Shown in pieces: positions 4,085-20,270 of a stretch of 64,000 bases of DNA. Below the pieces are notes generated by a model that saw only the letters and a program-made list of their open reading frames with translations, searched no databases and was not told the origin of the DNA. This DNA is from Methanoculleus sediminis (GTDB lineage Archaea; Halobacteriota; Methanomicrobia; Methanomicrobiales; Methanoculleaceae): contig NZ_JXOJ01000002.1 of assembly GCF_001017125.1 (NCBI RefSeq), positions 621,017 to 685,016 of the forward strand. Direction: 5' to 3'. Position 1 is the stretch's first letter. Each line of letters begins with the position of its first letter. Both the position numbers and the translations under genes were made by a program.

Positions 4085-4163
4085 TCCTCCCGGACGCGGT
4101 TTCGCCGGGCAGGAACCGTCGGCCGGCCTTCCACGACCTCATTCAGAGACCACGAGGAGTTGC

Positions 4164-5372
4164 ATGAAACAGGTATGCATCGTATCCCAACACTTTCCGC
4201 CGGAGAAATCAGGAAACGCGTCACGAATACACGACACCGCCGTGCACCTTGCAAAACTGGGGATCGGCGTGACCGTGCTTGCGCCGCACCCCACGTTTCC
4301 TACCGGCTCGTTCCCCCGTACCTGGAAGCGCTCGGACGTGCAGGAGGTCGACGGGATCCGGGTCGTCCGCCTCTGGACCTGGCAGCCGGGCACCGGCGAT
4401 CCGGGGTTTGGAAGCAGAATGGCCTACTACCTCATATTCCCGATCCACGCCGCACTCTGGCTCCTCCTCACCCGGAGCCGGTTCGACGCAATCATGACGT
4501 CGGCGCCGCCGCTCTTCACCGGGATCCCGGGGTACGTCCTGAAACGGAGATCAAGGGTGAAGTGGATCCTCGATATCCGCGACCTCTGGATCGATGCATC
4601 GATAGGCCTCGGTTTCCTCCGGGAGGGGAGCATCTACGAGAAGATGAGCCGGAAGTTTGAGCAGATGTGCCTTTCCCGGGCGGATCTCGTCGGGGTCACG
4701 ACGGAAGAACTCGGGCGGAGGATCTCGTCGCGCTACCGGGTTACCGCTCCCATGGAACTGATGCCGAACGGCGTCAATACCGAATTTTTTCGTCCCACAG
4801 ACGGCGGGAAGAAGCGGCAGATCATCTACGCCGGAAACGTCGGGCACGCCCAGGATCTCGATAAAGTGGCTCTCGCCGTCAAGTCGATGAACGGCACCTA
4901 CAACCTGAAGTTCGTCATCGTCGGCGACGGCGACACCAGGAAGAGCCTTGAGAGGCTGGTGAAGACGGAGAGCCTGACCGACTCCGTCGTCTTCACGGGC
5001 ACCCTTCCGCGCGAGGAGATCCCGCGGCTCCTCTCTGAATCGCTCGTGGGGGTGGCGCCCTTAAAGAGGCTCGCGAACCTCGAGTACGCCGCCCCCACCA
5101 AAGCCTACGAGTACATGGCGTGCGGGATACCCTTCATCGGCTGCGGGAACGGCGAGATCGCCCACCTCGCGAAGGAGTCGGGTGCGGGGGTCATCGCCGA
5201 CAACACGCCGGAGGCAATCGCCGCGACGCTTTCTGCGCTTCTCGACGATCCGGAGAAGATGGAGGAGATGGGCCGCCGGGGCCGGGAGTATGTCGCGGAA
5301 CATTACGACCGGCGATCGGTCGCACTGAAACTGAAGCACTACATCGAGAGGATGACATGGACGGGCGTGTAA
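4164..5372 (+). CDS. Family 4 glycosyltransferase (GT-B fold)
   Basis: Predicted 402-aa cytosolic or membrane-associated glycosyltransferase. It starts SQHFPPEKSGNASRI, typical of the N-terminal acceptor domain of WbuB-like GT4 enzymes. The C-terminal nucleotide-sugar domain shows PNGVNTEFF, YAGNVGHAQDL and the EYAAPTKAYEYMACGIPF segment carrying the donor-binding Glu. A GAGGAG site lies 5 nt before the ATG. The gene overlaps the next one by 16 nt, which ties it to the operon. Sugar and linkage are unknown. WbuB-like members often act on HexNAc residues, which would fit the WecB/WecC supply. Confidence 0.88.
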   Translation: MKQVCIVSQHFPPEKSGNASRIHDTAVHLAKLGIGVTVLAPHPTFPTGSFPRTWKRSDVQEVDGIRVVRLWTWQPGTGDPGFGSRMAYYLIFPIHAALWLLLTRSRFDAIMTSAPPLFTGIPGYVLKRRSRVKWILDIRDLWIDASIGLGFLREGSIYEKMSRKFEQMCLSRADLVGVTTEELGRRISSRYRVTAPMELMPNGVNTEFFRPTDGGKKRQIIYAGNVGHAQDLDKVALAVKSMNGTYNLKFVIVGDGDTRKSLERLVKTESLTDSVVFTGTLPREEIPRLLSESLVGVAPLKRLANLEYAAPTKAYEYMACGIPFIGCGNGEIAHLAKESGAGVIADNTPEAIAATLSALLDDPEKMEEMGRRGREYVAEHYDRRSVALKLKHYIERMTWTGV

Positions 5373-6547
5373 GATCACTTCTCTCCCGCGTTGCCGGAGA
5401 GGTCAGGGGGCTCGCCGTCGTCGACGGCGAGACCGCGTATATCCGCGATCCGGTCTTTGGGGTCGTCCGGAACCGCGTGCACGCCGAGGTCGCGAAGGCG
5501 CTGCTCCGGTTAGGCGGCGACCCGCTCGTGGGCCCGATCCTGAACTACGCCGCAGGATGCCAGAACCCGGACGGGTCATGGAACGAGGTTCACGTGAACT
5601 ACAACGAGCCTTCGGCGCTGATCACGGCGTTTATCGGCGACGCGCTCCTGGAGGCGGCGGACCGGCACCCGCATGATGAGGCGCTCCGAAAAGCCGGGGA
5701 CTTCGTCCTCGCCGCCGAGAGGAGCCCGGGATGCTTCCTGAAGTCCCGGGGGTACACAGCCGACCACCTGAACGTCGACGCCTCCTGCGGGGCGTTCCTC
5801 GCCCGGTATGCCGAGCGTTATGACGATGAGGGGGCCCGTGCGGCGGCGCTGCGGGCGGCGGAGAACGTCGTCCGCCACCAGTGTAAATGCGGCGTCTACC
5901 CCTACGCCGTCGATAAGGGGACCTACCCCTACGTCTTCAAGCTCCCCTGCGTGCACTACCAGGGGGTGACGATCTACTACCTCGCAAAGGCAAACGACGT
6001 CCTGTGCGACGACCGGATAGACGAGAGCATCGCGATGGGCGTGCGGTGGCTCGCAGATGCCCAGCGTCCCGACGGGCGGTTCGACTGGTCGAGGAGCGGG
6101 CTCTCCTTCGCCTACTACCTCTCCGGGGCATACGCGTTCGCCCAGGCCTCCTTTATCTATGCGGCGCGGACGGACGAGCGCTACCGGGAACACGCCGATC
6201 TCTGTCTCGATCGGCTTGATAAGTATGTGCAGGGGCTTGCACCCCGGTGGGAACCGGGTTCCTGGCTCGGTCTCGTCCCGTCCGTCGCCACGGCGGCGAA
6301 GACGGCATCGCTCGGGCACTATCCGTTGCGGCACCGGGCGTTCCGTTTCGGCTACGGCATGTACCGCGAGATCGCCCGCCGAAGATACGGCGAAACCGCG
6401 GAGACACGGTCCTTCGAGGCCCTCTGCCGGCTGCTCGGGATCCGGTCGTCGACCGTGGAACCGTCGAATAACTTCCCCGATCTCTTCATGACTTCAGAGG
6501 TGCTCGACTGTCTCAGTCAGTCGGGAATCTGGGGGGAATCCACATGA
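5357..6547 (+). CDS. Uncharacterised alpha/alpha-toroid-like protein of the polysaccharide operon
   Basis: A 396-aa soluble protein that I cannot assign firmly. The sequence is rich in helix-forming repeats containing short motifs such as QNPDGSWNEVH, QRPDGRFDWS and NVDASCGAF. These resemble the repeats of alpha/alpha toroids found in terpene-cyclase/prenyltransferase folds, AGE epimerases and uronyl hydrolases or lyases. There is no signal peptide or membrane segment. It overlaps the GT4 gene before it and the oxidoreductase after it (ATGA), and toroid lyase-like proteins are common partners of the two-domain oxidoreductase. A role in modifying or trimming a uronic-acid-containing lipid-linked glycan is a guess from context. 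Confidence 0.7.
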   Translation: MDGRVRSLLSRVAGEVRGLAVVDGETAYIRDPVFGVVRNRVHAEVAKALLRLGGDPLVGPILNYAAGCQNPDGSWNEVHVNYNEPSALITAFIGDALLEAADRHPHDEALRKAGDFVLAAERSPGCFLKSRGYTADHLNVDASCGAFLARYAERYDDEGARAAALRAAENVVRHQCKCGVYPYAVDKGTYPYVFKLPCVHYQGVTIYYLAKANDVLCDDRIDESIAMGVRWLADAQRPDGRFDWSRSGLSFAYYLSGAYAFAQASFIYAARTDERYREHADLCLDRLDKYVQGLAPRWEPGSWLGLVPSVATAAKTASLGHYPLRHRAFRFGYGMYREIARRRYGETAETRSFEALCRLLGIRSSTVEPSNNFPDLFMTSEVLDCLSQSGIWGEST

Positions 6548-8691
6548 AACAGGTATTGCTCGATCTGCAGTCAGGGTCCATCCAGGTGGAGAACGTTCCC
6601 GTTCCCGCCGTAACGAGGGGGGTCGTCGTCGAGAACGCCTACTCCCTCATCAGCGCCGGCACGGAGTCGTCGCTGATCAATCTCGCACAGCAGTCGCTCG
6701 TCGGCAAGGCGAAGGCACGCCCCGACGACGTCAGGAAAGTCCTCCAGAAAGTCGGGACGGACGGCCCCCTCTCGGCCTACCGGCAGGCGATGAGCCGTCT
6801 TGCAAAACCCGAACCGCTCGGCTACAGCTCTGCCGGCACGGTGGTGACGACGGCATCCGATGGCTTCGAGGTCGGCGACCGCGTCGCCTGCGCCGGAGCC
6901 GGGTATGCGGTGCATGCCGAGTACGTCTCGGTTCCAAAGAACCTCTGCGTCAAAATCCCCGACGATGTCGGATTCCGGGAAGCGGCGTTCACGACCGTGG
7001 GAGCGATCGCGATGCACGGCGCGAGAAACGCGAACGTCACCGTGGGCGAGAACGTCGCGGTGATCGGGCTCGGGCTGATCGGACTTCTCACTGTCCAGAT
7101 CCTCAAAGCCGCGGGGTGCCGGGTGATCGGGATCGATATCGACCCCGAAAAACTCGCGCTCGCCGCGGATCTCGGTGCTGATGTCGTCTCGAACTACGAC
7201 GGCCTCTTCGAGAGGGCGCGGGGGTTATCGCCGTTCGGGGCGGACGCGGTCATCATCACCGCGGCCACCAGATCGAGCGCACCCATCGAGGCCGCCGGCC
7301 GCCTGGTCCGGGATAGGGGCAGGGTCGTGGTCGTCGGGAACGTCGGCATGAACGTGCCCCGGGACGTCTTCTACGAGAAGGAGGCGGAGGTCGTCGTCTC
7401 CCGGTCCTACGGCCCCGGGCGATACGACAGGAACTACGAGGAGCGTGGGATCGACTACCCGATCTACGTCCGGTGGACGGAGAAGAGGAACATGGAGGCG
7501 TTTCTCGAACTGGTGCGGCAGAAGAAGATCGACCTCGACCGCCTGATCACGCACACCTTCCCGCTCGACGACGCTCCGGGGGCCTACGACCTCATCAATA
7601 CCGGGAAGGAACGGTTCATCGGGATCCTCCTGCAGTACAGCCCGAACGGTGCGGGGGCCTCCGACACCGTCGTCCACCTCCCGGAGCCGTCGAAGCAGAG
7701 GCGCAGGGTTCCGGCCGCGGCCCGGACGCTCGGGTGTATCGGCGCCGGGGTTCACGCCCAGAGCGCCCTCTACCCTCTCCTGCCGAACCTCCCGGTGAAC
7801 CTCGGGGGGCTTGCGACCGCGACGGGGCTCTCGGCGCAGACGGTCGCGAAGAAGTACGGGTTCGCCTACTGCACCACCGACTACCACAAGATCCTCGACG
7901 ATCCCGATATCGACGCGGTGATGATCGCGACGAGAAACGACCTGCACGCGCCCATGGCGATAGACGCGCTCCGTGCCGGAAAAGACGTCTTCGTCGAAAA
8001 ACCGCTCGCGACCGATATCGACAGCCTCCGCCGGATCGTCGAGGCCAGAAACGAGTCCGGGCGGCGGCTGATGGTGGGGTTCAACCGCCGCTACTCCCCG
8101 CTTGCGGCGAGGATGAAGGAGTTCTTCGCAAACCGGGCAACCCCCGCCGTCCTGCACTACCGGGTCAACGCCGGGCAGATCCCGCCGGACCACTGGGTGC
8201 ACGACGACGAGCAGGGCAGCGGGATGCTGATCTCGGAGTGCTGCCACTTCATCGACTTCATGCAGTACATCACCGGGGCACGGCCGGTCCAGGTCTTTGC
8301 CCGGGCGATCGAACCGACCGGGACGCTCCAGAAGTACGACAACTTCCAGGCGACCCTGACATTCGACGACGGGTCGCTCGGCACCGTCACCTACACGACG
8401 CTCGGCGACCGCTCATACCCCAAAGAGACCGTCGAGGTCTTCGCCGGCAACGCTGTCGGGAGGATCACCGACTTCCGCGACCTCGAACTCCGGCGGGAGG
8501 GGAAAGCATCGCGGGAGAAGCGGTGGCTCGCCCAGGAGAAGGGGTTTGCCGAGGAACTCCTGGCGTTCGTGAAGGGCGAGGAGCCGGACTTCGCCGCAAG
8601 CGTCGCGACGACCATTGCAACGTTCGCGGCGTGGGAGTCGATCGATACCGGGGCGGCGCGGGAGATCGATCCCGGGCGGGTCGGGTTGTGA
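6544..8691 (+). CDS. Two-domain oxidoreductase: zinc-type alcohol dehydrogenase fused to Gfo/Idh/MocA
   Basis: A 715-aa fusion. Residues 1-370 form a medium-chain dehydrogenase with the NAD(P)-binding motif GLGLIG near residue 175. Residues 395-715 form a Gfo/Idh/MocA sugar dehydrogenase with Rossmann motif GCIGAGVHAQ near residue 397 and the family motif EKPLA near residue 486. Such fusions occur in bacterial and archaeal polysaccharide clusters and probably carry out paired redox chemistry on a nucleotide or lipid-linked sugar. The reaction has not been defined as far as I know. The ATG overlaps the stop of the preceding gene, and a T6 run 25 nt after the stop may end the operon. Confidence 0.88.
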   Translation: MKQVLLDLQSGSIQVENVPVPAVTRGVVVENAYSLISAGTESSLINLAQQSLVGKAKARPDDVRKVLQKVGTDGPLSAYRQAMSRLAKPEPLGYSSAGTVVTTASDGFEVGDRVACAGAGYAVHAEYVSVPKNLCVKIPDDVGFREAAFTTVGAIAMHGARNANVTVGENVAVIGLGLIGLLTVQILKAAGCRVIGIDIDPEKLALAADLGADVVSNYDGLFERARGLSPFGADAVIITAATRSSAPIEAAGRLVRDRGRVVVVGNVGMNVPRDVFYEKEAEVVVSRSYGPGRYDRNYEERGIDYPIYVRWTEKRNMEAFLELVRQKKIDLDRLITHTFPLDDAPGAYDLINTGKERFIGILLQYSPNGAGASDTVVHLPEPSKQRRRVPAAARTLGCIGAGVHAQSALYPLLPNLPVNLGGLATATGLSAQTVAKKYGFAYCTTDYHKILDDPDIDAVMIATRNDLHAPMAIDALRAGKDVFVEKPLATDIDSLRRIVEARNESGRRLMVGFNRRYSPLAARMKEFFANRATPAVLHYRVNAGQIPPDHWVHDDEQGSGMLISECCHFIDFMQYITGARPVQVFARAIEPTGTLQKYDNFQATLTFDDGSLGTVTYTTLGDRSYPKETVEVFAGNAVGRITDFRDLELRREGKASREKRWLAQEKGFAEELLAFVKGEEPDFAASVATTIATFAAWESIDTGAAREIDPGRVGL

Positions 8692-8779: not shown

Positions 8780-8845
8780 GGGAGTGCGAGCGAAGCGAGC
8801 TTGAGCACCGATAGGTGCGACGGGGGCACGCCCCCTCCCCTGTCT
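8780..8845 (+). repeat. Dispersed GC-rich hairpin element, plus-oriented copy
   Basis: The unit reads GAGTGCGAGCGAAGCGAG, then TTGAG, a stem GCACC-GATA-GGTGC (8805-8818), then a G5/C5 snapback (GGGGGCACGCCCCC). Related copies with different stem sequences occur near 44400-44560 and 62570-62890, and inverted in the array at 8999-9230. Confidence 0.65.
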
Positions 8846-8998
8846 CAACCCGGTATGCGAACATCTGTAGCCTCCTCCCCCCGAGGGGGCGGAGGCAATG
8901 TATAGCCGGTGGAAAGCCGTATCCCCGGGAGCGAGCCGGGACTCCGTTCTTTTCCAGGGTCTCCCGGTACCCGCGGGTGGTGAAATCCAGACGCAATG

Positions 8999-9230: not shown

Positions 9231-9281
9231 AAAAACACCCGGGGAGTGCCCGGGCCCCCATATTCGGGCCCGATTCACCGC

Positions 9282-10490
9282 TTACGAAGAAGAAAGCTGG
9301 GTACTTCGGATATACGCCAGCTGCTCACGGATCCGCTCCGGGATCGTGCGGGAATCTTCTGCCGTAACGGCCTCCTTCCACTCCTCCCGGCACGGGCCGT
9401 CCAGACCGTCGAACTCCGTCGTGTCGAAACGGGAGTTGTATCGCTGGATCGCCTCCGTGATCCCGGCATCGCACTTCCCGCAGTTCCGTGCCCAGTCAAG
9501 CGATTCGACCGAATAGTTCCAGGGGCTGACGTAGACACGGGCACGATCCCCGAACCGCTCCCGGCACTGCTGGAGGAGTTCGACAATCGTCCAGAGCCAC
9601 GGCGGGCGGTAGAGATCGTTCTTCCAGAGTTCGTGCACGACGGTGTTCTTCTCGACCGTCGTCACCTCGAGGTCGACGTAGTCGATCCCGCGCGAGACGC
9701 AGTAGGCTATGGTCTGCAGGATATCGTCTATCGCTTCTCCTTCGGTGAGGAACGGCGGTTTCACCAGGAGAAGCGGTTTCGTCAGCACGCCCATCCCCCG
9801 CATCCTCGAATGGAAGATATCGAAGTTGTTCGCCGAGAACCCCTTGTTGATGCAGAGGTTCATCACCTGGGCGTTTGCAGACTCGAACCCGAACGCCACC
9901 TCGAGCTGCCGCCCGTTCAAGGCCTTCTTCATCTTCGCCACGTGCTCGTCGGGGGAATAATCGATCCTGGACTCGACGACCACCTTCTTGATGTTTTTGT
10001 AGCCGTCGATGTACGAGCAGATCTTCTCGATGGCGGCAACCGGCATCTCGCGTTCGTTAAAGATATTGCCGTCGTTGTATATCGAGACGATCGGATAATC
10101 CCCGAGATCGACGGCGTCCATCACGTACTCGAACTGCGCGATGTATTCTTCAGCCGATACCTCCCTGCCCCGGGACGTTGCACAGTAAAAACCGCACATG
10201 GTGCACCCTCCCGTCTTCTCGACCCATTCGCACCCCGTGGAACGGAGGAAGATGATCAACCGCCTGATGGGCTGATCGTCGAGATGCCCAATCCGCTCCT
10301 CCCAGCCGATGGGAACCGTAAAATCGAGGTCGTGCGGAGTGTTTCCATTCCGTTTGCGCAGACCCCCGGCCAGTGCGCGGATCTCGTTTAAAATATCATT
10401 CTCCGTTGAGTGACCCGTAAAGGTCTCTGCGCTGCTACTGCTATCAGGTACGGCCCTATCTAGAATAATTATCCCCCCTGTTCCGGGCAT
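9282..10490 (-). CDS. Radical SAM protein, RaSEA-like (TIGR01210 type)
   Basis: A 402-aa radical SAM enzyme. The segment GCEWVEKTGGCTMCGFYC (about residues 90-107) carries the cysteines expected to bind the 4Fe-4S cluster. Its layout, with WVEKTGGCTMCG, matches the RaSEA/Elp3-like branch rather than classic CxxxCxxC. Later features include SIYNDGNIFNE, ESRIDYSPDEHV and FGFESANAQV. RaSEA works with ArcS to form archaeosine in tRNA, so a tRNA-modification role is the best guess. No arcS or tgtA lies nearby and the gene sits between surface-polymer genes, so another substrate is possible. A TATA-like tract lies inside the first ten codons, so the start is uncertain. Confidence 0.75.
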   Translation of the reverse strand: MPGTGGIIILDRAVPDSSSSAETFTGHSTENDILNEIRALAGGLRKRNGNTPHDLDFTVPIGWEERIGHLDDQPIRRLIIFLRSTGCEWVEKTGGCTMCGFYCATSRGREVSAEEYIAQFEYVMDAVDLGDYPIVSIYNDGNIFNEREMPVAAIEKICSYIDGYKNIKKVVVESRIDYSPDEHVAKMKKALNGRQLEVAFGFESANAQVMNLCINKGFSANNFDIFHSRMRGMGVLTKPLLLVKPPFLTEGEAIDDILQTIAYCVSRGIDYVDLEVTTVEKNTVVHELWKNDLYRPPWLWTIVELLQQCRERFGDRARVYVSPWNYSVESLDWARNCGKCDAGITEAIQRYNSRFDTTEFDGLDGPCREEWKEAVTAEDSRTIPERIREQLAYIRSTQLSSS

Positions 10491-10532
10491 GCACCTTCAT
10501 GCCGAAGGCGCACGTCCCCGGTGACTGTCGCC

Positions 10533-10721
10533 TTATCTTACCAAGACATACCCCTGATAGGCTTTCGCATATTTATAGTTTATCCAATCTGTCAGGTTAT
10601 CGGGCCATGTTTTCGAAAAGGTATTCTTTGACGGGAAATCCAGGAAATCAGGCAGTCTGTTGAGAAGAATCGGATCCGCACTCCCGCCGTATTTCCCCCG
10701 GTTGGCGATCCGTTCGCCCAT
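10533..10721 (-). CDS. Small hypothetical protein, possible gene remnant
   Basis: A 62-aa frame starting MGERIANRGK, with an AGGATCAGGG stretch before the ATG and a TATA-like TATATAAA at 10764-10771, about 45 nt upstream of it. The frame extends to a GTG at 10802, but that start would lie upstream of the promoter. The composition (Asn, Lys, Trp, Tyr) differs from neighbouring GC-rich genes. I recognise no family. It may be the surviving tail of a decayed surface-polymer gene. It lies 42 nt upstream of the radical SAM gene on the same strand. Confidence 0.3.
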   Translation of the reverse strand: MGERIANRGKYGGSADPILLNRLPDFLDFPSKNTFSKTWPDNLTDWINYKYAKAYQGYVLVR

Positions 10722-10947
10722 AGAACCCTGATCCTGAATGGGGGAGATGACGGCATGCCAATTTTTATATACGTTGTTCAGGGGTATACTATCCCGATGC
10801 ACCGGCAGGTGGTCGTCCGGGCAATTCGCCCGGAGAAGAGTCGGAAAGGGCCCGGTACAAACCGGAAACCGGTGGGGCGAAGAGGCGGCATCACCGTGCG
10901 TTTCCGGCAGCTAGGGCAGAAGAGCGCATGAGAGGGGAACGGATATT

Positions 10948-12375
10948 ATGATTCGTCTGGGAGAGAGGATTTGCGGCAGGGAATCGTTCACTGCAAAAGC
11001 TCTCGCGCTCCTCCCGGCTTATAACGTCTATCGAAAGACCTACGCCCTCCTCCGGAAGTCCCAGCAATGGAGCCGGGAAGAACTCGCGGCCCACCAGGCG
11101 CAGGCGCTCTCGCGCCTCCTCGACCACGCCTACGAGAACGTCCCCTACTACCGCCGGGTCTTCCGCGAGCGCGGCCTCGTCCCGGAGGACATCCGGACCC
11201 CCGACGACCTGGTGCTCCTCCCGTTCCTGACCCGCGAGGACCTCCAGAACAACCTCCCCGACCTGAAGGCACGGAACTACCCCGACTCCGCCTTCGAGTA
11301 TGTCACCACCGGCGGCTCCACCGGGATCCCGGTCGGCTTCTACTACGAGAAAGGCGTCTCCCGGGCCCGGGAATGGGCGTTCATGAAGACCCAGTGGGAC
11401 CGCGTCGGCTACCGGTTCACCGACCGCTGCGTCGTCCTCCGGGGCTACATCGTCGGGTCGGCAAGAGACGGCGTCTTCTGGAAGAAGACCCTCTGCGGCC
11501 GGTGGCTCTTGATGTCTTCCCACCACATGACCGAGGAGACCCTGCCCGCCTACATCGACCGGATCGAGAGGTTCGAGCCCCGGTTCATCCAGGGATACCC
11601 CTCCACGGCCGTGATCCTGGCGCGATACATGCGGGAGCACGGGGTCGAGCCGTTCCCGACCGTCAAAGCCGTCCTCTGCGGGTCGGAGAACCTCTACCCC
11701 TGGCAGCGCGACCTGCTCGAGGAGGTGTTCGGGTGCCGGGTCTTCTCCTGGTACGGCAACTCCGAGCAGACGGTGCTTGCCGGCGAGTGCGAGGAGAGCA
11801 CCCACTACCACATCTTCCCCGAATACGGGATCGTCGAACTGATCGGGCGGGACGGCCGGCCCGTCCGGGGGCCGGGGGCCATGGGCGAGGTGGTCGCGAC
11901 CAACCTCACCAACTTCGTCTGCCCCCTCATCCGATACCGCACCATGGACCTTGCCACGGCGGCCGGGGGAACCTGTTCCTGCGGGCGGAGCTACCCGATA
12001 CTCGAGCGGGTCGAGGGGAGAGTCCAGGACTTCATCGTGACGGGGAAAGGCGAACTACTTTCCGGGATCGCCATGAACATCGATACCGATGCGTTCGATA
12101 ACGTTAAACAGTTTCAGTTCTACCAGGAGAAGGTCGGGGAAGTCATACTGAATATCGTGAGAAAATCAACGTTCAGCAAGCAGGACGCGGAGTACCTCTA
12201 CCGGGAAGTAAGCCGGAGTTGCGGCGACGACGTACTTATCACCATCAGGTACGTCGACAACATACCGCTCACCGCCCGCGGCAAGCATCGCTACTTCGTT
12301 CAGGACCTGCCGATACACTTCAGCGAACGGGAGGGGGGGATTGTCGAGCATGTGTCCTCCGATCTACTCGCCTGA
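10948..12375 (+). CDS. PaaK/CapK-family adenylate-forming ligase, copy 1
   Basis: A 475-aa member of the phenylacetate-CoA ligase/CapK/coenzyme F390 synthetase family, which adenylates a carboxylate with ATP and passes it to an acceptor. The N-terminal helix YENVPYYRRVF is typical of the family. The phosphate loop is TTGGSTGIPVGF (about residue 118), the adenine motif is YGNSEQTVLAGECE, and RYRTMD precedes a CSCGRSYP zinc-like segment and the mobile C-terminal domain. It is first of two adjacent copies, with a third at 17.7 kb. In polysaccharide loci CapK proteins are linked to capsule modification. The substrate is unknown. Confidence 0.85.
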   Translation: MIRLGERICGRESFTAKALALLPAYNVYRKTYALLRKSQQWSREELAAHQAQALSRLLDHAYENVPYYRRVFRERGLVPEDIRTPDDLVLLPFLTREDLQNNLPDLKARNYPDSAFEYVTTGGSTGIPVGFYYEKGVSRAREWAFMKTQWDRVGYRFTDRCVVLRGYIVGSARDGVFWKKTLCGRWLLMSSHHMTEETLPAYIDRIERFEPRFIQGYPSTAVILARYMREHGVEPFPTVKAVLCGSENLYPWQRDLLEEVFGCRVFSWYGNSEQTVLAGECEESTHYHIFPEYGIVELIGRDGRPVRGPGAMGEVVATNLTNFVCPLIRYRTMDLATAAGGTCSCGRSYPILERVEGRVQDFIVTGKGELLSGIAMNIDTDAFDNVKQFQFYQEKVGEVILNIVRKSTFSKQDAEYLYREVSRSCGDDVLITIRYVDNIPLTARGKHRYFVQDLPIHFSEREGGIVEHVSSDLLA

Positions 12376-13780
12376 ACCGGGAGGTATGCATACGAGGGCA
12401 GGTCTTCGTCGATGGGTGTCGCGTGCGAACCCGCTCACCGTAAAGGCACTCAGCCTGGTGCCGTCTTACCGCACCTACCGGCAGATGTACGCGCTCCTCC
12501 AGCGGTCACAGTGGTGGAGCCGGGAAGAACTCGCGGCCTATCAAGCGCAGGCGCTCTCGCGCCTCCTCGACCACGCCTACGAGAATGTCCCCTACTACCG
12601 CCGGGTCTTCCGTGAGCGCGGTCTCGTCCCGGAGGACATCCGGGGCCCGGGGGATCTCGAACTCCTCCCGTTCCTGACCAAAGAGATCGTCCAGGCCAAC
12701 CTTCCCGACCTGAAGGCCAGGAACTACCCGGAGTCCGCCTTCGAGTACGTGCGCACGTCCGGCTCCACCGGAACCCCCATGGGGTTCTACTACGAAAAAG
12801 GGGCCTCCCGGGCCCGGGAATGGGCGTTCATGAAGACCCAGTGGGACCGCGTCGGCTACCGGTTCGGCGACCGTTGCGTCATACTCCGGGGGCACGTCGT
12901 GGACGGGGCCTCCAGCGGCACCTACTGGCGGCGAGCGCTCTTCGGCCGGTGGCTGATCATGTCCTCCCACCAGATGACCGAGGAGACCCTGCCGGGTTAT
13001 GTATCCTGGATCCGGGCATTCAGGCCCCGGTTCATCCACGCCTACCCCTCCACGGCCGTGATCCTGGCGCGATACATGCGGGAGCACGGGATCGGGCCGT
13101 TCCCGACCGTCAAAGCCGTCCTCTGCGGGTCGGAGAACCTCTACCCCTGGCAGCGCGACCTGCTCGAGGAGGTGTTCGGGTGCCGGGTCTTCTCCTGGTA
13201 CGGCAACTCCGAGCAGACGGTGCTTGCCGGCGAGTGCGAGGAGAGCACCCACTACCACATCTTCCCCGAATACGGGATCGTCGAACTGATCGGGCGGGAC
13301 GGCCGGCCCGTCCGGGGGCCGGGGGCCATGGGCGAGGTGGTCGCGACCAACCTCACCAACTTCGTCTGCCCCCTAATCCGATACCGCACCATGGACGTCG
13401 CGGTCGCCACGGAGAAGCAGTGCTCGTGCGGGAGACAGTATCCCCTGCTCGAGAAGGTGGAGGGGAGGCTCCAGGAGTTCATCGTAACCCGGAGCGGGCA
13501 CCTGATCTCCGTCACCCCCATCAACTACGAGTCTGAGGCGTTCGAGAACATACGGCAGTTCCAGATGTACCAGGAGGAGGTGGGCGAACTCATCATGAAG
13601 ATCGTCAGAAAACCGGCCTACACCGAGAAGGATACCCGGCAGCTGACCGACGAACTTCGATGCCAGCTCGGCGACGGGGTGAACGTCCACGTCCACTTCG
13701 TCGACGAGATTCCCCGCACCGAAGGCGGCAAGTTCCGGTACCTCATCCAGAAAATTCCCATCTCGATCGGCGACCTCTGA
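12350..13780 (+). CDS. PaaK/CapK-family adenylate-forming ligase, copy 2
   Basis: A 476-aa paralogue of the preceding gene with the same motif order (TSGSTGTPMGF, YGNSEQTVLAGECE, RYRTMDVAV, CSCGRQYP). The region coding residues around 200-340 is almost identical in DNA to copy 1, while the C-terminal domain has clearly diverged. The ATG at 12350 is preceded by GAGGGGGGGA about 10 nt upstream and overlaps the end of copy 1 by 26 nt. A TTG at 12341 and an ATG at 12386 are alternatives. Stop and convergent FemAB gene are separated by only 6 nt. Its function is probably the same chemistry on a different carboxylate. Confidence 0.85.
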   Translation: MCPPIYSPEPGGMHTRAGLRRWVSRANPLTVKALSLVPSYRTYRQMYALLQRSQWWSREELAAYQAQALSRLLDHAYENVPYYRRVFRERGLVPEDIRGPGDLELLPFLTKEIVQANLPDLKARNYPESAFEYVRTSGSTGTPMGFYYEKGASRAREWAFMKTQWDRVGYRFGDRCVILRGHVVDGASSGTYWRRALFGRWLIMSSHQMTEETLPGYVSWIRAFRPRFIHAYPSTAVILARYMREHGIGPFPTVKAVLCGSENLYPWQRDLLEEVFGCRVFSWYGNSEQTVLAGECEESTHYHIFPEYGIVELIGRDGRPVRGPGAMGEVVATNLTNFVCPLIRYRTMDVAVATEKQCSCGRQYPLLEKVEGRLQEFIVTRSGHLISVTPINYESEAFENIRQFQMYQEEVGELIMKIVRKPAYTEKDTRQLTDELRCQLGDGVNVHVHFVDEIPRTEGGKFRYLIQKIPISIGDL

Positions 13781-13786
13781 CGGGTC

Positions 13787-14818
13787 TCAGTCGATGTAGT
13801 GGACGACCCTGCGCTTCAGCCAGGGATTGTTGAAGACGGAGGTGTACGCCCATTCCGCCAGGGTCCCGACTATATCCTTCCGGCAGACTTCCATATACAT
13901 GCCGAGAGCCGAACAGAACTTCGACTTGAAGAAGTTGAGGTCGGGCGTGTTCGCCCCGATGTTCTCCAGGTAGGAATACCCGTCGGCCCGTGCACGCTGA
14001 ACCAGGAGCCACTGGAGATACTCGTTCCCTGCATGAGCACTCTCGATTCGTGGCGTGCCCATCCAGAGCAGGAACCGCTTGTACTCCTGGGTGGCGACGG
14101 CTCCCGTGAGCGCGCCTTCCCGGTCATAGAGGTAGTACGCCGCGAGATGATCCGGGTACGCCCGGAAGACATCCTCAAAGTAACGCCTGCTGATCATCGG
14201 GATGTTCATATCAGGCTGGCTGAACCGCCCGGCAAGCGCCGTATACAAATCAGAGAGATCGGTGCTCCGCACGAGATCCATCCCGGCCTTCTCGGCTTTC
14301 CTGATTTTATTCCGGAGTTTATAGTGGAAATCCCCCCAGATCGTCTCGAGCGGCCGCGTAAGATCGATGACGTAGGTGTAGTGAACCTTTGGAGTATACC
14401 CCCTCCAGATGAACTGCCTGACGTCGGTGAGGCCGGGGACGAAGATCAGGGAGAAGTAGTGCGGCGATATCGCATCGATCTCTGCAGAGAGATCCGCCGC
14501 AACGAGATCCATGATCGCCTCCTGCTTGCCCAGTTTCAACGCGGCAAAATCCTTCGCCGGGATAAGGCCCTGGTAGGGGATGACCGCCTGCATGGGCGGC
14601 GGCGAGAAGAGCGTCTTGACCCCGTGCACGCTCCTGAAGAAGAGCGGAGCGAGGCAGACGAGTTCCTCTCCCTTGTAGATGCCGTACGGGAGGAGCCGGT
14701 ACCCCGTGTGCCGGGCCGTGATCGTGATGTAGTCCCACCTGTGAAAAAGCAGCCCGTACGGGCTTGCATCGACAAATGAATCCCACGTATCCCTGTCCTT
14801 AACAAGTTCGAGCACCAT
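13787..14818 (-). CDS. FemAB-like GNAT-fold transferase, copy 1
   Basis: A 343-aa soluble protein with a tandem GNAT (FemAB/BioF2-like, Acetyltransf_6) architecture. FemAB proteins use aminoacyl-tRNA or other acyl donors to build amide bonds on cell-surface precursors. Family-typical segments are SPYGLLFHRWDYI near the N-terminus, LRNKIRKAEKAGM near residue 165, and the C-terminal GNAT core YKRFLLWMGT followed by AGNEYLQWLLVQRA. It has two paralogues in the next 3.5 kb. It is convergent with ligase copy 2. A TATA box at 14882-14893 gives a leader of about 40 nt. Confidence 0.85.
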   Translation of the reverse strand: MVLELVKDRDTWDSFVDASPYGLLFHRWDYITITARHTGYRLLPYGIYKGEELVCLAPLFFRSVHGVKTLFSPPPMQAVIPYQGLIPAKDFAALKLGKQEAIMDLVAADLSAEIDAISPHYFSLIFVPGLTDVRQFIWRGYTPKVHYTYVIDLTRPLETIWGDFHYKLRNKIRKAEKAGMDLVRSTDLSDLYTALAGRFSQPDMNIPMISRRYFEDVFRAYPDHLAAYYLYDREGALTGAVATQEYKRFLLWMGTPRIESAHAGNEYLQWLLVQRARADGYSYLENIGANTPDLNFFKSKFCSALGMYMEVCRKDIVGTLAEWAYTSVFNNPWLKRRVVHYID

Positions 14819-14975
14819 AGAGCCAGACTTCCCGCCAAACGGTCATGCCAGACCGGGCCCGATACAGGATACCTCAAGGGCAATATTTATATCTTTCCCG
14901 GTAACCCCGGGGAGCGTGGGGCTGCGCCGATTTAAGCGGACACGAGAGATGCCGGGCCCCGGCGGGCCATCCCGA
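14819..14975. promoter_or_regulatory. Promoter region of FemAB-like copy 1
   Basis: On the minus strand AGATATAAATATTG (14880-14893) is a good TATA box for the gene starting at 14818. Nothing else is recognised in this spacer between two same-strand paralogues, so each has its own promoter. Confidence 0.5.
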
Positions 14976-16004
14976 TCACCTGACGTAGGGGACAAACCTC
15001 TTCTTGATCAGCGGTCTGTTGACGATGTTGCTGTACGCCCATTCCGCAACCCTGCCCACGCCGTCTTTCCTGCTCACCTCAAAAAAGATCGCAAGATCCG
15101 GGTTGTACTTCGCCTTATGCATGTTCAGGTTCGGGTTGTTCGCCCCGGTATTCTCGAACTCCGAAAAACCCTTCGTTTTGGCGTCTCGGATCAGGCACCA
15201 CTGGAGATACTCGTTTGCCGACGTGCCGTCGATCTTCGGCCCGCCGACCCAGAGGATGTAGCGCCTGTATTCCAGGGTCGTGCCGACCCCCTTGAGGTCG
15301 CCGGCCCGGTCGTAGAGGTGGTAGACACGGGCGTGGTCCGGATATGCCCGGAAGATATCCTCGAAGTAGTCGCGGGTGATCATCGGGATCTTCATATCCG
15401 GGCGGCTGAACCGCAGGCGCACCGTCTCGTAGAACCGGGTAAGACCGTCGCCCTCCTCCAGGTGGTAGCCTTCCTTCTCGAACCGCCGGAGACTCGTGCG
15501 CAGCTTCGCGTTCACGTTCCCCCAGAGGGTCTCGATCGGCGGTGCGAGGTCGATCGTATACGAGTAGTTGATCCCGGTCCGGTAACCGTCCCAGATAAAC
15601 CGGCGGATGTCGTGAAAGCCCGGGACGAACGTCATCGAGAGGTAGTTCGGCGCGAGATCACGGAGGGCTTCCGTGAGCCCGTCGGCCACCGCCTGCAGCA
15701 TCGACTCCTTCCTGCTCTGCTTTGCCGCTGCATAATCCCTGGCCATGACCACCCCGAGATACGGTATGACCGCCTGCATGGGCGGCGGCGAGAGCACGAC
15801 GGTGACGCCGTTCGTCCGCCTGCAGAAGAGCGGGAAGACCGCGAGCAGTTCTTCGCCCTTGTAGATGCCGTAGGGAAGAAACGCATACCCGGTATGCCGT
15901 TTCGTGATCGTCAGGAAGTCCCACTTATGAAAGAGGAGGCCCGAGGGGCTCTCGTCGACAAACGCGTCCCAGGCATCTCTGTCCGCGATGATCTCGACCG
16001 GCAA
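14976..16004 (-). CDS. FemAB-like GNAT-fold transferase, copy 2 (TTG start)
   Basis: A 342-aa paralogue. A longer frame reaches 16154, but the TTG at 16004 is preceded by GGAGGAA at good spacing, lies about 37 nt after the predicted transcript start from a TATA box at 16064-16073, and aligns residue for residue with the starts of copies 1 and 3 (the pattern D-x-D-x-W occupies residues 8-12 in all three). Shared motifs are SPSGLLFHKWDF, LRTSLRRFEKEGY and ANEYLQWCLIRDA. Part of a likely surface-glycan amide-forming set. Confidence 0.85.
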   Translation of the reverse strand: MPVEIIADRDAWDAFVDESPSGLLFHKWDFLTITKRHTGYAFLPYGIYKGEELLAVFPLFCRRTNGVTVVLSPPPMQAVIPYLGVVMARDYAAAKQSRKESMLQAVADGLTEALRDLAPNYLSMTFVPGFHDIRRFIWDGYRTGINYSYTIDLAPPIETLWGNVNAKLRTSLRRFEKEGYHLEEGDGLTRFYETVRLRFSRPDMKIPMITRDYFEDIFRAYPDHARVYHLYDRAGDLKGVGTTLEYRRYILWVGGPKIDGTSANEYLQWCLIRDAKTKGFSEFENTGANNPNLNMHKAKYNPDLAIFFEVSRKDGVGRVAEWAYSNIVNRPLIKKRFVPYVR

Positions 16005-16063
16005 ACTGTTCTTCCTCCACTCTGCCGGAGAGGGCCGGCAGGACTTTACCTCCTGCGGTCGGC

Positions 16064-16073
16064 CATATAAATC
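16064..16073 (-). promoter_or_regulatory. TATA box of FemAB-like copy 2
   Basis: The minus-strand sequence GATTTATATG, 60 nt upstream of the TTG at 16004, lies inside the longer upstream frame and so argues against an upstream start. Confidence 0.5.
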
Positions 16074-16239
16074 TAACGGCTGACGGGGTCGTGCCGGGGC
16101 ATTGAGCCCGACCGGCCACACGAACACGGTATCCATTCCGACGTTTCCGGGCATCAGGAGCCCTGAACCATGATTTTTGAGATAACATATCTCGCCCGGT
16201 GCCGTGAGGCACCGGGGAGGAGAGGGGCGGCGGCGAACC

Positions 16240-17256
16240 CTAAACCCTGCCGGCCGCCATCATCAACCGTTTCATAAAGGAGCGGTATGCCCACTCGGAA
16301 AAAGCGCCGAAGGTGTCTTTCTTCTCGATCTCAAAGTACATCGTGAGATCGGGGTTGAACTTCGATTTGAAGAAAGCCAGATCGGGGTTGTTCGCACCCA
16401 TGTTCTCGAACGTCCGGTAGCCTTCGGCATGTGCACGCCGGATCAGGAGCCACTGGAGATACTCGTTCCCCGCGTGAGCGCTCTCGATCTTCGGCGTTCC
16501 CATCCAGAGCAGGAACCGCTTGTACTCCTGAGCGGCCACCACGGCCGCGACCTCGTCCTCTGCATCGTAGAGGGTGTAGACCCCTATCCGGTCCGGGTAG
16601 GCGCGCACGAGATCCTCGAGGTAGTCGCGCCTGATCGGCGGGATGTCGAGTGACGGGTCGCGGTAACGATCGGAGATGAGCGCATGGAGCGTGGAGACAT
16701 CCCCGGATCTCTCCAGCCGGAGACCTGCTTTCTCTTCCTTCTTCAGCTTGCTGCGGAGTTTGTAGTGGAGGTTGTTCCAGATATCCTCGAGCGGCCGCTC
16801 CAGATCGATGGTGTAGGTATACCGGACCCGCGCATCGCACCGGTCCCAGAGGTAGTGGCGTATATCGTCGAATCCGGGGACGAAGGCCATCGAGAGGTAG
16901 TTCGGTGAGAGATCGAGGAGTTCCCCGCGAATCTCCTCCGCGATCAGCCCGAGAAGGGATTCTTTCTTGCTCCGCTTGAGCGACCCGAACTTCCCGCTCG
17001 TCACGCACCCGAGGTGGGGGATCACCGTGAGCGGCGGAGGCGAAAAAACGGCGTTGATGCCGTGCATCCGCCTCCAGAAGAGCGGAAATACACAGAGCGG
17101 CTCGTCTCCCTTATAGATCGCGTAGGCAAGGAGAGTGCTCTTCGTATGGTTTGCCGTCAGGTGCAGGTAGTCCCACTTGTGAAAGAGGAGGCCCGAAGGG
17201 CTCTCGTCGATGAACGTGTCCCAGGTATCTCCGTCCTCGACTCTGATCGCTGTCAT
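16240..17256 (-). CDS. FemAB-like GNAT-fold transferase, copy 3
   Basis: A 338-aa paralogue with the same features: SPSGLLFHKWDYL, LRSKLKKEEKAGL and AGNEYLQWLLIRRA. A GTG at 17268 is an alternative, but the ATG at 17256 aligns exactly with the starts of copies 1 and 2. A TATA box CATATATACC is at 17323-17332. The C-terminal ends of the three copies (RSFMKRLMMAAGRV here) differ the most. As with the ligases, three copies suggest three acceptors or three amino or acyl groups. Confidence 0.85.
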   Translation of the reverse strand: MTAIRVEDGDTWDTFIDESPSGLLFHKWDYLHLTANHTKSTLLAYAIYKGDEPLCVFPLFWRRMHGINAVFSPPPLTVIPHLGCVTSGKFGSLKRSKKESLLGLIAEEIRGELLDLSPNYLSMAFVPGFDDIRHYLWDRCDARVRYTYTIDLERPLEDIWNNLHYKLRSKLKKEEKAGLRLERSGDVSTLHALISDRYRDPSLDIPPIRRDYLEDLVRAYPDRIGVYTLYDAEDEVAAVVAAQEYKRFLLWMGTPKIESAHAGNEYLQWLLIRRAHAEGYRTFENMGANNPDLAFFKSKFNPDLTMYFEIEKKDTFGAFSEWAYRSFMKRLMMAAGRV

Positions 17257-17457
17257 CCCTTCCGTCACTCCGGTGCTGTCATGCAGTCTGCGGCTCGGCG
17301 ACCTCTAATCATCTCCCGGACTCATATATACCTTTCCAAGGGTCCACCGTATCGCGCAGCCGGTCGCCGCGGGGCCGGGCGCAGTTACCCTGCCCGGGCG
17401 GCGAGCCCGGATCCGCGGACAGGAATCATTATATACCGGAACACGTGAGGTAGGGGC

Positions 17458-17649
17458 ATGGTCGCACTCCGCCTCCTCGCCATGGACGACGTTTCATTCC
17501 GCTCGTGGGAAGGCAACGGTTCGGGCGCATACGGCGACATCTGGGTGATCATCCCGGAAAAAAATCTCTTCCCGGAGTTCCTTAAACACTTTTACCGCGC
17601 ATCCGGCCGGGATCTGATCTCGATACCGTACTCCGAGAACTTCTTCTGA
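17458..17649 (+). CDS. Small hypothetical protein (63 aa)
   Basis: A short frame starting MVALRLLAMDD and ending SIPYSENFF. A TATATA element at 17430-17436 lies about 25 nt upstream of the ATG, so the transcript would be leaderless, and a GAGGTAGGGG tract also precedes the ATG. I recognise no domain. It lies in the ligase/FemAB cluster, between FemAB-like copy 3 and ligase copy 3. It could be a genuine small protein or the tail of a lost gene. Confidence 0.4.
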   Translation: MVALRLLAMDDVSFRSWEGNGSGAYGDIWVIIPEKNLFPEFLKHFYRASGRDLISIPYSENFF

Positions 17650-17721
17650 ACCTGCCGGGGAACCCGGCCGCCTTCATCGTGCTGCCGGTGCTGTCCAGCC
17701 ATACCGGGAGCAAAACGTTTA

Positions 17722-19155
17722 ATGCAGAGTATAGATATGAGCACCACGATGAGTGTGCGGATGAATCATCGTGAATCGAGAGCTCTCCGGCTTGAGAATT
17801 CTGTGACCGCGAGGGCACTCCGCATCCTCCCCGCATACTCTGCTTACATTAAGACCTACGCTCTCCTCCGGGAGTCCCGGCAATGGAGCCGGGAAGAACT
17901 CGCGGCTCACCAGGCGCAGGCGCTCTCGCGCCTCCTCGACCACGCCTACGAGAACGTCCCCTACTACCGCCGGGTCTTCCGTGAGCGCGGCCTCGTCCCG
18001 GAGGACATCCGGACCCCCGACGACCTGGTGCTCCTCCCGTTCCTGACCCGCGAGGACCTCCAGAACAACCTCCCCGACCTGAAGGCCAGAAATTACCCCG
18101 ATTCCGCCTTCGAGTACGTCACCACCGGCGGCTCCACCGGGATCCCGGTCGGCTTCTACTACGAAAAAGGCGTCTCCCGGGCCCGGGAATGGGCGTTCAT
18201 GAAGACCCAGTGGGACCGCGTCGGCTACCGGTTCACCGACCGCTGCGTCGTCCTCCGGGGCTACATCGTCGGGTCGGCAAGAGACGGCGTCTTCTGGAAG
18301 AAGACCCTCTGCGGCCGGTGGCTCTTGATGTCTTCCCACCACATGACCGAAGAGACCCTGCCCGCCTACATCGACCGGATCAAGAGGTTCAAACCCCGGT
18401 TCATCCAGGCGTATCCCTCGGTGGCGACGATCCTGGCGCGGTACATGCGGGAGCACGGGGTCGAGCCGTTCCCGACCGTCAAAGCCGTCCTCTGCGGGTC
18501 GGAGAACCTCTACCCCTGGCAGCGCGACCTGCTCGAGGAGGTGTTCGGGTGCCGGGTCTTCTCCTGGTACGGCAACTCCGAGCAGACGGTGCTTGCCGGC
18601 GAGTGCGAGGAGAGCACCCACTACCACATCTTCCCCGAATACGGGATCGTCGAACTGATCGGGCAGGACGGCCGGCCCGTCCGGGGACCGGGGGCCATGG
18701 GCGAGGTGGTCACGACAAGCCTCATAAACCCCATCTGCCCCCTCATCCGATACCGCACCATGGACGTCGCGGTTCTCGGGACGGACTCCTGCACCTGCGG
18801 GCGGAGCTACCCGATGCTCGAGCGGGTCGAGGGGAGGCTCCAGGAATTCATCGTGACGAAGAACCGCCGGTTCATATCGATGACCGCGGTAAACATGCAT
18901 TCCGACATCTTCGACAACGTTGCGCAGTTCCAGTTTCACCAGGAGAAAGAGGGAGAGACCCTGCTACGGATCGTGAAAAAACCCGGATACAGCGACCGCG
19001 ACACGGAGCGCATCCTCAAGGAACTCGACAGAAAATTCGACGGCGACGTGGACGTGACCATCCGCTTCGTCGATGAGATTCCCCGCACCCAGCGCGGTAA
19101 ATACCAGTTCCTGATACAGGAACTCCCGCTGGGTCACGGGGGCATTTCGGTGTGA
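17722..19155 (+). CDS. PaaK/CapK-family adenylate-forming ligase, copy 3
   Basis: A 477-aa paralogue of the ligases at 10.9 and 12.3 kb. The region for residues 50-210 is nearly identical in DNA to copy 1 (TTGGSTGIPVGFYYEKG, RYRTMDVAV), the central YGNSEQTVLAGECE segment is shared by all three, and the C-terminal domain is its own. Several in-frame ATGs follow the first (17737, 17749, 17761), so the start is uncertain by about 13 residues. The stop is followed within a few bases by the CapA-like gene, with which it is probably co-translated. Confidence 0.85.
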   Translation: MQSIDMSTTMSVRMNHRESRALRLENSVTARALRILPAYSAYIKTYALLRESRQWSREELAAHQAQALSRLLDHAYENVPYYRRVFRERGLVPEDIRTPDDLVLLPFLTREDLQNNLPDLKARNYPDSAFEYVTTGGSTGIPVGFYYEKGVSRAREWAFMKTQWDRVGYRFTDRCVVLRGYIVGSARDGVFWKKTLCGRWLLMSSHHMTEETLPAYIDRIKRFKPRFIQAYPSVATILARYMREHGVEPFPTVKAVLCGSENLYPWQRDLLEEVFGCRVFSWYGNSEQTVLAGECEESTHYHIFPEYGIVELIGQDGRPVRGPGAMGEVVTTSLINPICPLIRYRTMDVAVLGTDSCTCGRSYPMLERVEGRLQEFIVTKNRRFISMTAVNMHSDIFDNVAQFQFHQEKEGETLLRIVKKPGYSDRDTERILKELDRKFDGDVDVTIRFVDEIPRTQRGKYQFLIQELPLGHGGISV

Positions 19156-19160
19156 GAACC

Positions 19161-20270
19161 ATGCGAAAACTCAGGTTAATTGCAGTAGGAGACATATGGG
19201 TTCGGACGGCGAACTATCAATACCCGTTCGGGAGGGTCAGTCATCTTCTCGAGAGTAAGGACGTCCTCTTCGGGAACCTGGAGACCACCCTCTCGGATAC
19301 GGGAGAACCGGCAGAGAAGCACCACGTGATCTTCACATGCCCGGATTCGGCCCGGCACCTGAAGGAGGCCGGGTTCGACGTCATGAGCGTTGCAAACAAC
19401 CACTCCGGCGACCTCGGTGTCGAGGGATTCAAGAACACCCTGAACGCACTCGAGAGACGGGGTATTCTCGCCATCGGCGGATCGGCGACCGAAGATCGGC
19501 AGGAACCGATCATCCTCGAGAGGAACGGTATCTCGATCGGGTTTGCGGGCTATACGATCGGCAAACTCGCCATATCGCGTGAGGTCTCGGTCAACCGGCT
19601 GGTCGAGGAGGACATCCTCAAGGATATCGCATCTCTCAAAGGCCGGTGCGACCATATTGCCGTCTCGCTGCACTGGGGGACGGAGATGGCCTACTACCCG
19701 TCTCCCGAGCAGATCGACCTCGCCCACCGGCTCATCGATGCGGGGGCCACCCTGATCCTCGGGCATCACCCCCACACCATGCAGGCGATCGAACGCTACC
19801 ACGGGGGGCTCATCGCCTATTCGCTCGGCATGTTCCAGTTCGAGCCGCGCTGGCCCCACAACATCTCGCGGGAGGCGATCATGCTCTCGGTCGACCTGCA
19901 GAAGAACGGCGTCGTCGGGACGCATGAGACGGCGCCGCTCATCATCGACGACGACTTCATACCCCGTCCCGCAGAGGGTCCGATGGGTGAGGAGATCCTG
20001 AACTTTCTATCCGAGATCTCGCGTCCGGTCGCCGAAGGCAGGCTCACCAGGGCAAGGTGGTTTGAGGAGATCGCGCCGGTCTACATGAAGATGAACCTCG
20101 AGAGTTACCGTTACCGGATACGCCGCAAAGGTCTCTTCCCGCTCCTGGAGATGGGAGCCTGGTTCTTCACGCCGTTCTGCCTGAAATGCTGCGCCGGCCT
20201 GGTACGGCGGTTATTTCGCCCGGAAATGGCGCGCAGGAGGCGTGCCCCCGGACAGAACGCCGGGAACTGA
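19161..20270 (+). CDS. CapA-family metallophosphoesterase-like protein (poly-gamma-glutamate capsule type)
   Basis: A 369-aa protein of the CapA/PgsA family. Metal-site motifs are in order: VGDIWV at the N-terminus, FGNLETTLSD, ANNHSGDLG, SLHWGTEMAYYP and LGHHPHTMQ. CapA is needed to make or anchor poly-gamma-glutamate in bacteria, and the family has a calcineurin-like phosphoesterase fold. There is no signal peptide. The C-terminal 70 or so residues contain a hydrophobic stretch (LLEMGAWFFTPFCLKCCAGLV) that may be a membrane contact. A GTG at 19152 overlapping the ligase stop is an alternative start. Its position after a CapK-like ligase supports a capsule-like polymer. Confidence 0.85.
   Translation: MRKLRLIAVGDIWVRTANYQYPFGRVSHLLESKDVLFGNLETTLSDTGEPAEKHHVIFTCPDSARHLKEAGFDVMSVANNHSGDLGVEGFKNTLNALERRGILAIGGSATEDRQEPIILERNGISIGFAGYTIGKLAISREVSVNRLVEEDILKDIASLKGRCDHIAVSLHWGTEMAYYPSPEQIDLAHRLIDAGATLILGHHPHTMQAIERYHGGLIAYSLGMFQFEPRWPHNISREAIMLSVDLQKNGVVGTHETAPLIIDDDFIPRPAEGPMGEEILNFLSEISRPVAEGRLTRARWFEEIAPVYMKMNLESYRYRIRRKGLFPLLEMGAWFFTPFCLKCCAGLVRRLFRPEMARRRRAPGQNAGN

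Follow-up and report, generated by a model that had tools for sequence, protein, structure and literature searches.

We analysed a window of 64,000 nucleotides from Methanoculleus sediminis (G000:C8:621017-685016; genome of 2.49 Mb), and within it a locus at 10948-20270 that encodes three PaaK-type ligases (LigA, LigB and LigC), three FemAB-type tandem GNAT proteins (locus FemA, FemB and FemC, jointly the Fems) and one CapA protein, all with open reading frames (ORFs). Genomes are labelled G, contigs C and fetched stretches L, of which L001 is 20 kb long. The gene order is GT2-wecB-wecC-GT4-Hyp475-BiDomDH-RaSEA paralogue-LigA-LigB-three Fem genes-LigC-CapA, followed by 2-oxoacid:ferredoxin oxidoreductase genes (Table 1). 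An earlier note on this DNA had named the seven genes and placed them beside wecB/wecC and glycosyltransferases. The ORFs and family matches bear out that gene set, which overlooked the RaSEA paralogue next to LigA. A chance grouping of the seven genes is ruled out by the gene order, which recurs in the stretches fetched from the genus.

Table 1. Genes of the locus and its upstream cluster, with positions in the window.
Feature	Position	Strand	Basis
Family 2 glycosyltransferase (GT2)	428..1582	+	PF00535; syntenic
WecB-type UDP-GlcNAc 2-epimerase	1611..2714	+	PF02350, 392 bits
WecC-type UDP-sugar dehydrogenase	2615..4084	+	PF03721, PF00984, PF03720
Family 4 glycosyltransferase (GT4), long ORF	3873..5372	+	PF00534
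Hyp475, about 396 aminoacids, unnamed, weak alpha/alpha-toroid similarity	5357..6547	+	Start from relatives
BiDomDH, zinc dehydrogenase fused to Gfo/Idh/MocA oxidoreductase	6544..8691	+	PF00107 and PF01408
Radical-SAM paralogue of RaSEA	9282..10490	-	TIGR01210, 238 bits, cut-off 212
LigA, PaaK-type adenylate-forming ligase	10948..12375	+	PaaK-type model matches
LigB, PaaK-type ligase	12386..13780	+	ATG after GGGAGGT
FemA, FemAB-like tandem GNAT	13787..14818	-	PF13480 above cut-off
FemB, FemAB-like tandem GNAT	14976..16154	-	PF13480 above cut-off
FemC, FemAB-like tandem GNAT	16240..17268	-	PF13480 above cut-off; FemA/FemX fold
LigC, PaaK-type ligase	17722..19155	+	PaaK-type models; sequence and fold match solved PaaK-family chains
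CapA/PGA_cap protein	19152..20270	+	PF09587, 209.7 bits, cut-off 27

The three ligases are mosaic copies of one another, a feature that the earlier note had missed. We compared a core (LigC residues 45-344) and a tail (from residue 380) across the 13 loci with all three ligases, leaving out L041, which has LigA and LigB only, and treating L056 and L057 separately. Within a genome, the cores of LigA and LigC are on average 93.8% identical (range 84-99), while the cores of orthologues from different species average 87.1% for LigA and 85.3% for LigC. In the tree of cores, 10 of the 13 loci have their own LigA and LigC as sisters. The tails show the reverse, with a mean LigA-LigC identity of 42.5% within a genome against 83.6% (LigA) and 79.6% (LigC) between orthologues. 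Overall, paralogous tails are 42-44% and orthologous tails 80-87% identical, and tails cluster by ligase type. L056, from another genus, has a first ligase whose tail shares 73% identity with that of LigB and 43% with that of LigA. At the DNA level, the three ligase genes of M. sediminis are 100% identical over two 60-column alignment windows that fall at LigC residues 261-300; towards both ends the genes diverge.

We read this pattern as gene conversion that keeps one adenylation core, with the C-terminal domains under separate selection. In adenylate-forming enzymes the acid is bound in the large domain, and the small C-terminal domain serves the second half-reaction. Because the cores are homogenised, the tails are distinct and the acid is bound by the large domain, the sequences suggest, as the simplest inference, that the ligases share an acid and serve three acceptors or partners. 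The trio is a clear example, in nature, of concerted evolution that acts on the catalytic core and leaves the C-terminal domain free to differ.

As for the ligase family, a phmmer search with LigC against solved structures returned 4r1l (E 2.7e-33). The predicted LigC structure has a mean predicted local distance difference test (pLDDT) value of 82.2 and is closest in fold to BT_0428 (Z 29.0), PaaK1 (28.1) and 2-hydroxyisobutyryl-CoA ligase (28.0), then to NatL2, AjiA1 and ClxA and, lower, to GH3 amido synthetases (17.9). The likeness to the PaaK-family members PaaK1, BT_0428, 2-hydroxyisobutyryl-CoA ligase, NatL2 and ClxA extends from about residue 40 to 470 (Z 24-29); the ligases of the locus differ from these relatives in forming three copies with homogenised cores. 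These neighbours include both coenzyme A (CoA) ligases and amide formers, between which the predicted fold cannot pick. In an alignment of 31 sequences (A4; 28 of 37 listed ligase ORFs and the three from the window), G137-S138-T139-G140 and T456, G459 and K460 are invariant in 31/31; the last three residues represent the catalytic-lysine motif of the C-terminal domain. The ligase search in named genomes gave 27 loci, 25 of them archaeal.

The Fems were assigned by PF13480, with PF02388 (FemAB) unreported for all three at E<=0.001. PF13480 occurs at six places in the genome, three in the window and three on contig C1; the identity of the C1 proteins to locus FemA is 20-24%. The only NCBIfam match of each Fem is TIGR03019, at 51.0, 41.1 and 55.0 bits; these scores lie far under its cut-off of 260, and on them, with no exosortase search run, we rejected membership in the XrtA/PEP-CTERM FemAB equivalog. 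FemC, the sole Fem modelled, was predicted from an alignment of 36 sequences (A3; 33 of 34 listed Fem ORFs and the three from the window) with a mean pLDDT of 85.7. Its best fold match is Staphylococcus aureus FemA (Z 25.0, root mean square deviation 3.6 over 290 residues), with the streptothricin enzymes Sbb17/Sba18 at 22.3-22.8 and Weissella FemX at 21.6-22.7, so that the tandem GNAT fold is shared with these proteins over most of the chain. MprF (16.1), a protein of unknown function (15.5), a mycobacterial tandem GNAT (14.4) and mycothiol synthase (13.9) come next. S. aureus FemA and FemX use aminoacyl-tRNA as donor and need no separate ligase, and aminoacyl-tRNA use is also stated in the structure matches of Sbb17 and Sba18. 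Since the predicted FemC fold is closer to FemA/FemX than to CoA-using GNATs (Z about 14), the Fems probably bring their own amino acid.

Fem genes also occur in other surroundings. Genomes of the Methanoculleus group have solo Fem genes elsewhere (L042 9810-10838, L043, L045 and L046). These share about 50% identity with the locus Fems; their neighbours are conserved but unnamed, and the stretches hold no ligase. In other families, a Fem gene adjoins what we take to be a deacetylase-like gene in L079, L083, L084, L085 and L089 (among the rows listed), often with several conserved neighbours; the relative in L091 gave only a weak DUF7033 match in Pfam. M. sediminis itself has a second trio of Fem-like genes (L001, G000:C1:480500-500400, at 8520-11808), together with glycosyltransferases and a presumed deacetylase-like gene that had no Pfam match. 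This stretch also encodes a CapA 50% identical to that of the window, and the ligase search gave no place within its 20 kb.

The set is common in the genus and its arrangement is syntenic there. Ligase matches at E<=1e-60 were found in 33 of the 35 genus genomes and Fem matches at E<=1e-10 in 30, counting G016, which has only a 25%-identical Fem, and G017, which has only a solo-type one. Three ligase matches were found in 20 genomes, four or five in 3, two in 5, one in 5 and none in 2. Many of the irregular counts are partial matches at contig ends, and the single match in G033 is divergent (289 bits). G011 and G030 (1.9-2.0 Mb) are without ligases, Fem, RaSEA paralogue and Hyp475, and offer natural locus-free members of the genus for comparison.

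Fourteen loci could be read through, 13 fetched and the one in the window. All 14 keep an intact FemC, 10 an intact FemA and 7 an intact FemB; LigA and LigB are present throughout and LigC in 13. The number of intact Fems varies from 1 to 3 with the ligases kept, and Fem remnants are seen in L030 and L034. This uneven retention led us to reject a pairing of one ligase to one Fem. A full CapA is found in 11 loci; in L029 the end of the stretch truncates it, L039 retains a remnant and L041 has none. In the last of these (G022, L041 14622-15252), LigC and CapA are missing inside the contig, and the oxidoreductase genes come directly after FemC.

Outside the genus, 24 ligase places were found, and 23 of them lie in 21 fetched stretches (G042:C1:799968 was left out, and the genus stretches L065 and L078 were excluded). 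Glycosyltransferase or wec genes are present in 16 of the 21 stretches, Fem in 7 and CapA in 6, abutting the ligase. At fixed thresholds, 5 of the 19 ligase-bearing outside genomes have a Fem gene no more than 10 kb from a ligase (7/24 places), and among the listed wecB places that are away from ligases the count is 1 of 66; this compares genomes with places. In G097 and G129, two ligases flank two Fems. A simpler form is seen in G064 (L061) and G065 (L063), from other families, where GT2-wecB-wecC-GT4-Hyp475-BiDomDH runs straight into one ligase; these 20 kb stretches hold no Fem and no RaSEA paralogue. In G119 and G033 the upstream cluster is present and the contigs end soon after BiDomDH (L095 and L096), which speaks neither for nor against the ligase-only form. 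Conversely, Fem without a ligase in the same stretch occurs in L079-L086, L089 and L091-L094. The linkage of Fem and ligase is thus real but not obligatory, and the two kinds of enzyme are not a fixed pair. Fem is enriched near ligases, and the independence that the earlier note had named as contrary to its view is found in part, in these Fem stretches that lack a ligase.

The RaSEA paralogue is a rare gene that accompanies the Fem-bearing form of the locus wherever contigs are readable. It has no Pfam family at E<=0.01. It is not the sole TIGR01210 gene of the genome, as we had considered, given a second and better copy at G000:C13 (322.9 bits). Compared with four canonical copies, the paralogue carries four extra residues inside its first cysteine loop and is unlike them in its N-terminal region. 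At E<=1e-70 it was found in 32 of 150 genomes of the order, namely 25 of the genus, G097, G129 and G148, and G067, G072, G077 and G082; at E<=1e-60 it was found in 13 of 392 genomes of the phylum, in two genera only. In G097, G129 and G148 it lies within the same wec cluster. The ligase and Fems come after it in G097 and G129, and the Fems and ligase are on another contig in G148. Some fragmented assemblies are exceptions: G032 and G016 have the paralogue beside a LigA fragment at the contig end with no locus-type Fem found, and G014 has Fems and ligase pieces with no match to the paralogue.

G067, G072, G077 and G082 (L091-L094) belong to one genus of another family and were counted as one event. 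Here the paralogue lies less than 3 kb from a Fem gene. In L091 (7651-12529) it has a PF00733 (asparagine synthase) gene on either side, and both of these proteins match glutaminase domains at scores under the cut-off; relatives of both genes are present in L092 and L094, and of one only in L093. The paralogue therefore goes with Fem in two settings, each with a different carboxylate-activating enzyme. By analogy with RaSEA and preQ0-lysine in tRNA, the activating enzyme (PaaK-like here, asparagine-synthase-like in those four genomes) might couple an amino acid to the carboxylate of a uronic acid, the paralogue might cut the N-C bond of that amino acid to leave a primary amide, and the Fems might build there or on a nearby amine; we regard this as a long shot. 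According to the part of the source available, RaSEA itself converts preQ0-lysine to archaeosine in tRNA (PMC11298593). The proposal, if true, would mean tRNA-modification chemistry relocated to a surface glycan, and a link between a RaSEA-family enzyme and glycan genes would put that chemistry to a new use.

The locus probably decorates a surface sugar chain. This part of the earlier note is well supported by the WecB/WecC-type enzymes, the carboxylate-activating ligases and the Fem-fold enzymes. From the gene content, synteny, concerted evolution, predicted folds and linkage, we propose the following substrates, steps and products. WecB and WecC would make UDP-ManNAcA, which the glycosyltransferases would incorporate into a lipid-linked glycan. 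As gene conversion keeps the ligase cores alike, all three ligases would adenylate one and the same carboxylic acid. Their distinct C-terminal domains would pass the acyl group on, via CoA or directly as an amide or ester, to three acceptors or partners; CapA would act beside LigC. Independently of this, the Fems would take an amino acid, most likely from aminoacyl-tRNA like FemA/FemX, and attach it to an amine of this glycan or of its precursor, and the RaSEA paralogue would be a radical-SAM enzyme working with this Fem branch. The locus would then be the Methanoculleus version of a Methanomicrobiales surface-glycan locus, with shared-acid ligases and an independent Fem branch. The synteny in the genus, the joint absence in G011 and G030, the simpler single-ligase cluster (L061 and L063) and the position of CapA by the ligase in 6/21 stretches all favour this reading, which we prefer tentatively as the likeliest single one, at somewhat less than even odds when taken whole.

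Several points weigh against it. The LigB core is only 81-88% identical to the other cores within a genome, and homogenisation of the cores could stem from the mechanics of conversion tracts, not from selection for one substrate. FemC is just 11-16% identical to the FemA, FemX and Sbb17/Sba18 chains. Neither phmmer with FemC nor the 36-sequence Fem profile gave a Fem match among solved structures, the single match of the profile being a designed protein (E 0.017), and a common predicted fold is no proof of the donor. The Wec names rest on Pfam family matches, to families that do not separate dehydrogenase substrates, and two further WecB-like genes are present on contig C10. The Fisher test for Fem near ligases (P 0.0018) sets genomes against places and ignores kinship, and three of the five genomes come from one family. 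As for the ligase-only form, G133 (L064) has the same cluster and one ligase at which the contig ends, leaving the content beyond unseen; Fems do occur in the stretch around the second ligase of G064 (L062), and in G065 about 120 kb separate the Fems from the ligase. Finally, the Fem-like HfsK is proposed to acylate the holdfast polysaccharide of Caulobacter, with homologues coupled to various polysaccharide systems, as stated in the available part of that source (PMC5362036).

Another reading, which we consider unlikely, is that the ligases adenylate the carboxylate of ManNAcA itself (free, nucleotide-bound or in the glycan) and couple an amine to it in the manner of GH3, with the Fems doing something else. 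GH3 enzymes couple acyl acids to amino acids, and LigC does resemble GH3 amido synthetases (Z up to 17.9), although less than PaaK; its best folds are PaaK-family acyl-CoA ligases, and we know of no PaaK-family member that accepts a sugar acid. The presence of wecB within 10 kb of a ligase in 9 of the 19 outside genomes agrees with such a role, as does the existence of amides on ManNAcA or related acids. The parts of the sources available describe threonine on a ManNAcA in the glycan of Methanococcus voltae (PMC2952790) and, in the Vibrio polysaccharide VPS, a glycine amide of guluronic acid that could derive from ManNAcA (PMC3901696); these are parallels in chemistry. The enzyme attaching threonine in Methanococcus maripaludis was not identified as of that 2010 review (PMC2952790, available part; later work was not checked). 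The amide-linking of amino acids to archaeal surface sugars was thus open in 2010, and the present locus is a compact candidate set.

The earlier note had instead proposed a relay, in which the ligases activate carboxylates and the Fems move those same groups onto the glycan, in matched pairs with three specificities. The grouping of three of each in this locus, the two ligases flanking two Fems in G097 and G129 and the enrichment of Fem near ligases speak for such a relay. We consider it quite unlikely nonetheless, in view of the single-ligase clusters without Fem (L061 and L063; L064 is cut), the Fem genes without ligase, the 1 to 3 intact Fems beside persisting ligases, the homogenised ligase cores and a predicted Fem fold nearest to FemA/FemX.

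It is improbable that the ligases are ordinary CoA ligases for aromatic or short acyl groups, or coenzyme-F390-type enzymes, located here by chance. Models of these enzymes do match all three: NF045666 (DVU_1553 family AMP-dependent CoA ligase) is the best NCBIfam match at 134-138 bits, and TIGR02155 (phenylacetate-CoA ligase PaaK) scores 104-107 and TIGR03335 (coenzyme F390 synthetase) 80-89. All scores are below the equivalog cut-offs, however, which are 300, 646 and 459 in that order, and glycosyltransferase or wec genes are near the ligase in most outside stretches, as given above. Lastly, a mostly neutral copy number, with tandem duplication and gene conversion accumulating copies without new function, would fit the Fem decay in some genomes (L030 and L034) but is very improbable with all three ligases in 13 of the 14 readable loci and tails conserved by type across species.

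Loci that modify polysaccharides or glycans and contain both PaaK-type ligases and Fem-type transferases are of a known kind; the concerted ligase trio and the RaSEA paralogue are what is unusual here. From the FemABX proteins and Sbb17/Sba18, the Fems differ in sequence to the extent given above and in matching PF13480 and not PF02388, and to our knowledge this archaeon has no peptidoglycan, the setting of FemABX. The XrtA/PEP-CTERM FemAB (TIGR03019) and the exosortase-associated ligase TIGR03098 also bring ligase and Fem together, in what we take to be an exopolysaccharide setting. The Fems (41-55 bits against 260) and the ligases (at most 16.8 bits against 592 for TIGR03098) both stay far from these models. 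RaSEA is alike to the paralogue by TIGR01210 above cut-off, and differs by the loop insertion and N-terminal region. Among the papers it covered, our literature search found no description of FemAB combined with phenylacetate-CoA ligase and polysaccharide, none of FemAB with exosortase and exopolysaccharide and none of Methanoculleus with FemAB. HfsK is like the Fems in being a Fem-like tandem GNAT tied to polysaccharide systems, but belongs to a bacterial holdfast, in a proposed pathway that also includes a deacetylase, and the available part of the source mentions no PaaK ligase or RaSEA paralogue (PMC5362036).

Some gene boundaries differ from the listed ORFs. The listed start of wecC overlaps wecB and several homologues align from residue 24, so its true start is probably further in, judging by these alignments; the same is probably the case for GT4, and the true start of FemB is probably about 50 codons further in. 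The listed TTG start of LigB, at 12341, falls inside LigA. CapA overlaps the end of LigC by 4 bases, as read in the sequence, and an alternative ATG is possible 9 bases on. Hyp475 has no Pfam family at E<=0.01; a weak squalene-cyclase similarity is seen for the window protein and for a relative. The gene serves as a marker of the glycan cluster and is present in 34 of the 150 genomes of the order.

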